Shown in pieces: positions 3,091-29,383 of a DNA stretch of 46,607 nt (positions are counted from its first letter, which is position 1; each line of letters opens with the position of its first letter). The stretch is from positions 1-46,607 of IMG/VR virus record IMGVR_UViG_3300042691_021677; one strand, written 5' to 3'. Below the pieces are notes generated by a model. The model was given only the letters and a program-made list of their open reading frames with translations. It did not search any database and had not been told where the DNA came from. A program made the position numbers and the translations under genes. The DNA comes from a virus.

Positions 3091-3343
3091 ACTTAAACCA
3101 TTCACGCTACGGATCCCCGATGCGGAGGGAAAGATCGTCCGTCGCGTCAAAGTCAAAGTGCCAGTCGAGTGGGACGAAGCGATCGGGGAATGGATGATGA
3201 CACCGGAGTCGCTCCGCATGGTCGAGGAGGCCAAAGCGTGTGAGATGCGGAAGCCTAGCCCCGAGTTACTCGATGAGATTCTCTGGAAGATCGGCGTCCT
3301 CGCCTTTCTTGCCGTGTTCATCTTGATCGAACTCACCAAGTAA
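3077..3343 (+). CDS. Small protein with C-terminal membrane anchor
   Basis: 88 residues from MPKVELKPFTLRIPD. Residues 70-86 (ILWKIGVLAFLAVFILIEL) form one transmembrane helix; the rest is soluble and basic, probably cytoplasmic. The start at 3077 is fixed by AAGGGAGG seven bases upstream. No family recognised; a tail-anchored host-interaction protein is plausible. Confidence 0.65.
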   Translation: MPKVELKPFTLRIPDAEGKIVRRVKVKVPVEWDEAIGEWMMTPESLRMVEEAKACEMRKPSPELLDEILWKIGVLAFLAVFILIELTK

Positions 3344-11834: not shown

Positions 11835-12863
11835 ATGAACCATGTGGATCCTACCATCACACACATCAGTCTATGCACCGGATACGGAGGTCTTGACCTC
11901 GGAATCCGTAGAGTCGTTGGCGAACGTCTGCGGACAGTCGCTTACAGTGAAATCGAAGCCTTCGCGTGCGAGTTACTTCTCTCGCGCATGGAGGGCGGGC
12001 AACTTGATTCGGCTCCGATCTGGCCTGATCTCCGCACTTTCCCTTGGGAAGAGTTCGCCGGAGTCTCGATCATCAGCGGGGGGTTTCCATGTCCCCCGTT
12101 TTCCGCAGCCGGAAACAGGAACGCCGATGAAGACCCGAGACACCTCTTCCCCTTCATCCTCGACGGCATCCGCCGAGCACGACCTACCGCTGTTTTCTTG
12201 GAAAACGTCGAAGGCATCGTCTCGGCCAAGCTCAAGGGAGACGGGTGGAGCGACCCTGCCGGCACTCCGGTTCTGCTCCATGTCCTCCGAGAGTTGGAGC
12301 GCGTGGGTTACATCGCAGAGGCGGGACTATACTCGGCGTCAGTCGATGCGGGAGCGCCTCACCAACGACGCAGGGTCTTTATCTTGGCCCACCGCGTCGG
12401 CGAGGGACTCGAAGGGTGGCTACCAAGGGGGCCGCATCCGCAACGGGAAGCTGTCGATGGACACGCTCGACGTGGCGGTGCAAGCCTATCGGGAGGGTGG
12501 CATCCTTGGCCCGCCCGTCCGGGCGAACTCCAGCATGACTGGGAACCACCCCGAGTCCTTATGGGCGACACCGAACGCGGGGGACGGCAAAGCTGGAATG
12601 GCGGTCAACAGATTGCAGAAGTCTCTCGGGCAGGATGTGACGAGGGCGGAGGGCGGCTATCTGCCCAAGGCCAAGCTCAACCCGAGGTTTTCGGAAGTCT
12701 TGATGGGACTGCCAGTCGGCTGGCTTATGCCGAGTTGTGCTCGTCCTGTGATTCAAGATGGGACGAGCTTCGATTGGCAGGGAACGGCGTTGTCCCCCAG
12801 TGCGCTGCCGTCGCCTTCCACGACCTCACTTGCCGCTTGAATAATAACTCCACAACCAAATAA
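11835..12863 (+). CDS. dcm-like: DNA cytosine-C5 methyltransferase
   Basis: 342 residues. Motif I is SLCTGYGGLDLG (12-23), the SAM loop; motif IV is GGFPCPPFS (82-90) with catalytic Cys86; motif VI is ENV (123-125); motif VIII is QRRRVFILA (177-185); motif X is GNGVVPQ (316-322). Residues about 186-312 replace the target recognition domain and look compositionally strange, though WPARPGELQHDWEPPR (225-240) recalls other phage C5 enzymes. It methylates C5 of cytosine in a site that cannot be read from sequence, probably to evade host restriction. No Shine-Dalgarno of the usual leader type; the ATG lies in an AATGAACCATG context. A second frame overlaps it throughout. Confidence 0.9.
   Translation: MNHVDPTITHISLCTGYGGLDLGIRRVVGERLRTVAYSEIEAFACELLLSRMEGGQLDSAPIWPDLRTFPWEEFAGVSIISGGFPCPPFSAAGNRNADEDPRHLFPFILDGIRRARPTAVFLENVEGIVSAKLKGDGWSDPAGTPVLLHVLRELERVGYIAEAGLYSASVDAGAPHQRRRVFILAHRVGEGLEGWLPRGPHPQREAVDGHARRGGASLSGGWHPWPARPGELQHDWEPPRVLMGDTERGGRQSWNGGQQIAEVSRAGCDEGGGRLSAQGQAQPEVFGSLDGTASRLAYAELCSSCDSRWDELRLAGNGVVPQCAAVAFHDLTCRLNNNSTTK
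11842..12840 (+). CDS. Overlapping +1-frame ORF with TRD-like motifs
   Basis: 332 residues in the +1 frame of the methyltransferase, starting at an ATG seven bases after the first one and ending 23 bases before it. The first 110 residues look like a shadow. From about residue 115 the text becomes protein-like and resembles, from memory, the variable C-terminal parts of phage C5 methyltransferases and their companion frames: LFSWKTSK (118-125), SWSAWVTSQRRDY (151-163), SWPTASARD (181-189), WATP (241-244) and KLNPRFSEVLMGLPVGW (278-294). Either a genuine second product, a part joined by frameshifting, or a shadow kept open by high GC. No separate ribosome binding site is evident. Confidence 0.45.
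   Translation: MWILPSHTSVYAPDTEVLTSESVESLANVCGQSLTVKSKPSRASYFSRAWRAGNLIRLRSGLISALSLGKSSPESRSSAGGFHVPRFPQPETGTPMKTRDTSSPSSSTASAEHDLPLFSWKTSKASSRPSSRETGGATLPALRFCSMSSESWSAWVTSQRRDYTRRQSMRERLTNDAGSLSWPTASARDSKGGYQGGRIRNGKLSMDTLDVAVQAYREGGILGPPVRANSSMTGNHPESLWATPNAGDGKAGMAVNRLQKSLGQDVTRAEGGYLPKAKLNPRFSEVLMGLPVGWLMPSCARPVIQDGTSFDWQGTALSPSALPSPSTTSLAA

Positions 12864-19132: not shown

Positions 19133-29383
<10,251 letters not shown>

Follow-up and report, generated by a model that had tools for sequence, protein, structure and literature searches.

The window analysed here, a viral DNA stretch of 46,607 nucleotides (IMG/VR record IMGVR_UViG_3300042691_021677), carries two long open reading frames over nearly the same DNA. 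A first-pass annotation had described a cytosine methyltransferase locus at this position with two open frames whose starts lie 7 nt apart, and both ORFs were found: frame 0, at 11835-12863, encodes a protein of 342 aa (alpha), and the +1 frame, at 11842-12840, one of 332 aa (beta). The main features of the two chains are listed below.

11835-12863, plus strand: alpha chain in frame 0, with C5-methyltransferase motifs I-VIII, a linker and motif X (Pfam and PHROG matches, AlphaFold, constraint).
12090-12092, plus strand: codon of the catalytic Cys86 of alpha in motif IV, PCPP (sequence; invariant in 16 aligned relatives).
12780-12800, plus strand: motif X of alpha, GNGVVPQ, codons 316-322 (sequence; GN invariant in relatives).
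11842-12840, plus strand: beta chain in the +1 frame, with a recognition-domain-like region and a motif-IX-like element (+1 constraint, stop depletion, phrog_1008).
12415-12483, plus strand: island of beta, GGYQGGRIRNGKLSMDTLDVAVQ, common to phage N15 (19/24 residues identical in +1, 3/23 in frame 0).
12673-12723, plus strand: motif-IX-like element of beta, KLNPRFSEVLMGLPVGW (in +1 in all dual-frame relatives, and in-frame in the single-chain Filuzino gp68).

The two translations were searched separately against protein databases. Alpha matched the Pfam family DNA_methylase over residues 9-192 (9e-28) and phrog_363 over residues 7-331. The frame-0 catalytic motifs reported in the first-pass annotation were confirmed, with Cys86 and GNGVVPQ both present, and the AlphaFold model of alpha contained a large domain resembling M.HhaI. 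Residues 200-221 and 243-297 of that model had pLDDT values below 50, and the linker was predicted to be disordered. Alpha thus has the C5-cytosine DNA methyltransferase features of motifs I-VIII and X, a catalytic Cys and a large-domain fold; motif IX and a recognition domain are absent from frame 0. Most relatives have GFPCQPF as the catalytic motif; the window (12084-12095) and relative L009 have GFPCPPF.

Beta matched phrog_1008 (2.6e-12), and no Pfam match was obtained for this protein. The motifs WKTS, SWPTASARD, WATP and KLNPRFSEVLMGLPVGW, earlier attributed to the +1 frame, were located there at the expected places. The last of these, an element of the form LNPxWVExLMGxPxGW, sits at the motif-IX position. 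A PDB search with a profile of this element returned nothing significant, so its identity as motif IX rests on its position and on the single-chain relative. A PDB search with the beta profile likewise gave no significant relative. In the island (GGYQGGRIRNGKLSxDxLDVA), DNA identity between the window and N15 was 61%, and 19 of the 28 differences fell at +1 third positions. The AlphaFold model of beta alone was of low confidence except for a helix at residues 149-176 and the motif-IX helix; this would agree with a chain that acquires its fold on binding its partner, an inference from the model.

Modules of the form (W/L)(P/A)TPxAxD were observed to vary in number in the recognition part of beta (L004 1166-2545, L030 2729-4279 and others). 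The variation suggests that target specificity may change in a modular or repeat-driven way.

When synonymous codons were shuffled with the frame-0 protein and codon usage kept, the longest +1 ORF averaged 148 codons, and one as long as that observed arose with P = 0.001. Since 0.1% of such shuffles reach it, the length of the ORF alone is only suggestive; the evidence from comparing sequences of relatives was far stronger. IMG/VR searches with each protein recovered loci in which both frames were open and similar, and in 116 of 117 loci with both profile matches the beta match lay in +1 relative to alpha. The exception was mycobacteriophage Filuzino gp68, in which the catalytic motifs, the LTAAFPEWMMGWPAGW element and motif X all occupy one frame. 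The same +1 relation was found in N15 gp58 and in Klebsiella, Salmonella, Acidovorax, Vibrio and Synechococcus phages.

Because fetching loci by +1 similarity is biased towards an open +1 frame, the test was redone on loci fetched with frame 0 only. Beta lay in +1 in all 79 virus loci obtained in this way, and in the 74 distinct loci +1 stops numbered 13 upstream of motif VI (202 expected) and 24 downstream of it (252 expected). Homologues with a broken +1 frame beside an intact frame 0 would have refuted dual coding. Stops in +1 proved rare in the virus clade, and those in the N-terminal part are concentrated directly ahead of a new ATG in the same frame. Among bacterial and prophage loci fetched with frame 0 (L200-L279), which came from many phyla, beta was in +1 in 70 of 80; +1 stops numbered 72 downstream versus 231 expected, and 172 upstream versus 217 expected. 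As only the downstream part is clearly depleted of stops, beta in these loci probably begins within alpha and is short. With beta-like matches in +1 in so many of them, annotated bacterial genes for DNA cytosine methyltransferases may often conceal a recognition subunit. Sequencing error was considered and ruled out, since many independent contigs, as well as the isolate N15, keep both frames open and under selection.

Selection was compared region by region in the window and its relatives L008, L009 and L010, with substitutions classed by their effect in each frame and two dN/dS-type ratios calculated per frame. Two stretches were delimited in this way.

12180-12389, plus strand: doubly constrained stretch, codons 116-185, with motifs VI-VIII in frame 0 and a helix-forming WSAWVTSQRRDY segment in +1 (substitution test; beta model).
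12390-12734, plus strand: codons 186-300, a relaxed linker in frame 0 and the constrained recognition and motif IX region in +1 (substitution test; alpha pLDDT).

Over codons 8-115, frame 0 was constrained (0.26/0.14) and +1 was not (1.54/0.85). Constraint was found in both frames over codons 116-185 (0.19/0.09 in frame 0, 0.49/0.24 in +1), whereas over codons 186-300 the +1 frame was constrained (0.26/0.28) and frame 0 relaxed (0.86/0.92). Frame-0 constraint returned over codons 301-331. Accordingly, the wobble position of the substitutions is at first that of frame 0, shifts to that of +1 in the middle of the gene and then returns: differences between the window and L009 by frame-0 codon position were 10, 6 and 34 in codons 8-115 and 28, 7 and 10 in codons 186-300 (p = 2e-5).

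Applied to ordinary flanking genes of the virus loci, the method gave +1 ratios of 1.01 and 0.93 and is thus free of inherent bias. These genes served as the control in place of the +2 frame, which is uninformative as a synonymous-shuffle control because constraint on +1 conserves the DNA and raises +2 as well. In the wider virus clade, +1 codons about 13-66 were also constrained (NN/NS 0.50 versus 1.01 in the control; 47 independent pairs, p = 4e-13). This N-terminal constraint is absent from the small group to which the window belongs; among its closest relatives, +1 missense constraint starts near codon 116, and codons 8-115 are open but unconstrained.

These comparisons demonstrate that both frames are selected and that the predicted motifs of one enzyme are divided between them. 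The suggestion of true dual coding, with the companion protein supplying target recognition, is upheld by selection and the purging of stops, which are evidence at the level of sequence; the biochemistry is inferred. We conclude with high confidence that two nested frames of this locus together encode a C5-cytosine DNA methyltransferase of two subunits, its activity and assembly being inferred.

Two features bear on where beta begins.

11842-11846, plus strand: ATGTG, a putative overlapping start at which ATG would open beta and GTG alpha (kept across the virus clade; the window is without a clear Shine-Dalgarno sequence and initiation is inferred).
12127-12129, plus strand: ATG at beta codon 96, a possible internal beta start (in the window and L008; absent in L009 and L010).

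The surprising part of the locus is the start shared by both chains. An ATGTGG start was present in 87 of 89 virus-clade loci with the motif, and ATGTG in 55 of 71 alpha-fetched loci. In the relatives, the ATG opens the +1 frame (MWILPK) and the GTG two bases later opens frame 0 (VDTT). Where an alpha-fetched locus had a single possible alpha start, that start was GTG in 34 of 37 cases. The two bases before it, both untranslated in alpha, were AT in 32 and TT in 2, so that a +1 start codon overlaps the alpha GTG in all 34. Shine-Dalgarno-like matches of at least 5 bases were found in 21% of cases in the virus clade, against a background of 6%. In relatives with GTG as the sole alpha start, it is implied that ribosomes initiate in both frames at ATGTG. 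The window locus, with AUGUG and long selected ORFs in both frames, has the sequence feature of an ambiguous start as given by Kohl et al. 2022. We lean, by a modest degree, towards the view that, in a widespread family of phages, both subunits of one enzyme, the catalytic and the recognition one, are translated from a single ribosome-binding site: initiation at AUGUG would be ambiguous, with AUG giving beta and GUG giving alpha. If true, such initiation ties the ratio of the subunits to one site and represents a selected, functional use of overlapping start codons.

In the window itself, alpha has an additional ATG of its own at 11835 and no clear Shine-Dalgarno sequence was seen, and initiation of beta at 11842 is for these reasons likely, not shown. 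The absence of missense constraint in beta codons 8-115 within the window group adds to the uncertainty. It also lends weight to a variant in which the enzyme has the same two subunits, the window beta starts internally near codon 96-116, and the first third of the +1 ORF is merely a by-product. The near-ordinary upstream +1 stops and short beta of the bacterial and prophage relatives agree with this variant, as does the stop followed by ATG just before motif VI in some relatives. However, +1 is open from ATG 11842 in the window and in L008, L009 and L010, the ATG at 12127 is missing from two of these four, and the wider virus clade both constrains the N-terminal +1 codons and keeps ATGTG. An internal start is consequently judged unlikely, while remaining a serious contender.

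A split form of the +1 frame was observed in L022, where a TAA closes it just before motif VI and, one codon later, an ATG reopens it (ACA TAA AAA ATG CAA, 3317-3337). The same TAA/ATG restart occurs in L023, L024, L027, L131, L143, L150 and L182. It looks like termination-reinitiation that would split beta into an N-terminal piece of 107 residues and a recognition piece.

The frame-0 linker between motifs VIII and IX contained 21 stops in 47 loci, compared with 213 expected if only the +1 protein mattered. All 21 fell in L110 and L118, and the linker was open in the other 45 loci. In L072, L110 and L118, the +1 ORF carries motif X, and alpha terminates shortly after motif VIII. Frame 0 thus appears to be kept open to reach motif X and released once motif X moves. 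In mycobacteriophage Stasia the motifs are divided between gp76 and gp75 as in these three loci, with an overlap of only 26 nt. By PHROG, Filuzino gp68 matches phrog_363 and phrog_1008 in one chain; the two families are split between Stasia gp76 and gp75, and N15 gp58 and its +1 ORF match one each.

A single polypeptide could in principle arise through two programmed frameshifts, from 0 to +1 after motif VIII and back before motif X, and two observations speak for it: selection passes from one frame to the other along the gene, and Filuzino gp68 is a single-chain relative. Such a model does not need the open linker of the 45 loci, and it is opposed by the joint constraint of both frames over codons 116-185 and by the relatives (L072, L110, L118, Stasia) in which the +1 chain has motif X and alpha ends. 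We regard it as very improbable; frameshifted isoforms, raised in the first-pass annotation, were set aside on the same linker and codon 116-185 evidence, and it is strongly implied that alpha and beta are made as separate chains. The ancestral shadow also raised there, an untranslated +1 ORF reflecting the constrained frame-0 gene or biased composition, can be dismissed with near certainty, barring artefacts in the selection tests. An ORF of this length is only a 1-in-1000 event by synonymous shuffling, and a lone case could be luck, but purifying selection acts on +1, which over codons 186-300 is better conserved than frame 0. Identity between L013 and the window is 84% in +1 against 76% in frame 0, and scores of loci have been purged of +1 stops.

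In the favoured explanation, of a two-subunit enzyme from nested frames, alpha would form the catalytic, AdoMet-binding large domain, with motifs I-VIII, a disordered bridge and motif X, and beta would supply the small domain, with the recognition-domain-like region and motif IX. The chains are inferred to assemble into one enzyme in which beta sets the target site. The window beta is inferred to initiate at ATG 11842, 7 bases after the alpha ATG, at the ATGTG that many relatives use as a double start. The enzyme probably protects phage DNA from host restriction; this is inference only, a restriction partner having been sought only among neighbouring ORFs. Elsewhere in the window, an ORF of 3416 residues lies at 19133-29383 on the minus strand, and its C-terminal part matches the virion structural protein family phrog_22602 (8.6e-31). 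Most of the large ORFs neighbouring it had no PHROG match.

To our knowledge, it is very rare for two frames of one strand to overlap over a long distance and to encode interlocking parts of the same enzyme, and no paper on phage methyltransferase genes that overlap was found in the literature searched. Gene-calling programs drop the second of two such frames. For a common group of phage and bacterial methyltransferases, it seems that the recognition half is missing from annotations, and anyone who cloned or classified the annotated frame-0 protein by itself, or assigned a specificity to it, would be working with the wrong thing. Single-chain, AquI-like and nested forms all occur among the relatives, which also makes the gene a natural system in which to study how splitting evolves. 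The conserved ATGTG offers a direct test for a selected function of ambiguous initiation, shown so far with E. coli reporters.

In E. coli, which has such sites in pqiA and tamA, ribosomes can read AUGUG in either frame (Kohl et al., PMC9841429), and Thermus rnpA-rpmH was cited as the only bacterial ambiguous start described before (PMC9841429). The window resembles both in having adjacent or overlapping starts in different frames within one initiation region. The E. coli sites, unlike the window, have no known functional second protein, and Thermus rnpA-rpmH encodes two unrelated proteins; in the window family the two frames would be parts of one enzyme, in scores of phage loci. N15 gp58 and its enterobacterial phage relatives (phrog_363 with phrog_1008 or phrog_31772) share with the window the +1 relation, the recognition island and motif IX in +1. 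They differ in their shorter +1 ORF, with stops in its N-terminal part, and in the N-terminus of alpha.

M.AquI (CYCGRG) pairs a catalytic chain with a second, small chain that has the recognition region, motif IX and motif X (PMC3404938). The window similarly pairs a catalytic chain with a second chain bearing a recognition-like region and a motif-IX-like element, but its motif X is on alpha, in frame 0. L072, L110, L118 and phage Stasia are AquI-like in having motif X on the second chain. The small gene of M.EcoHK31I is reportedly nested in another frame of the large gene, and the second gene of the window likewise overlaps the first in another frame. M.EcoHK31I (YGGCCR) is a two-polypeptide C5-methyltransferase with motifs I-VIII and X on the large chain and motif IX on the small chain (PMC3404938), a division matched by the window if its position-based motif IX assignment is accepted. 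In contrast to M.EcoHK31I, the window beta spans nearly the whole alpha gene (332/342 codons), starting 7 nt after it, and its recognition segment belongs to beta; the review assigns the predicted TRD of M.EcoHK31I to the large chain (PMC3404938). The locus is thus predicted to work like M.EcoHK31I, but differs from it in its near full-length nested beta, its shared start region and the presence of the recognition segment in beta.
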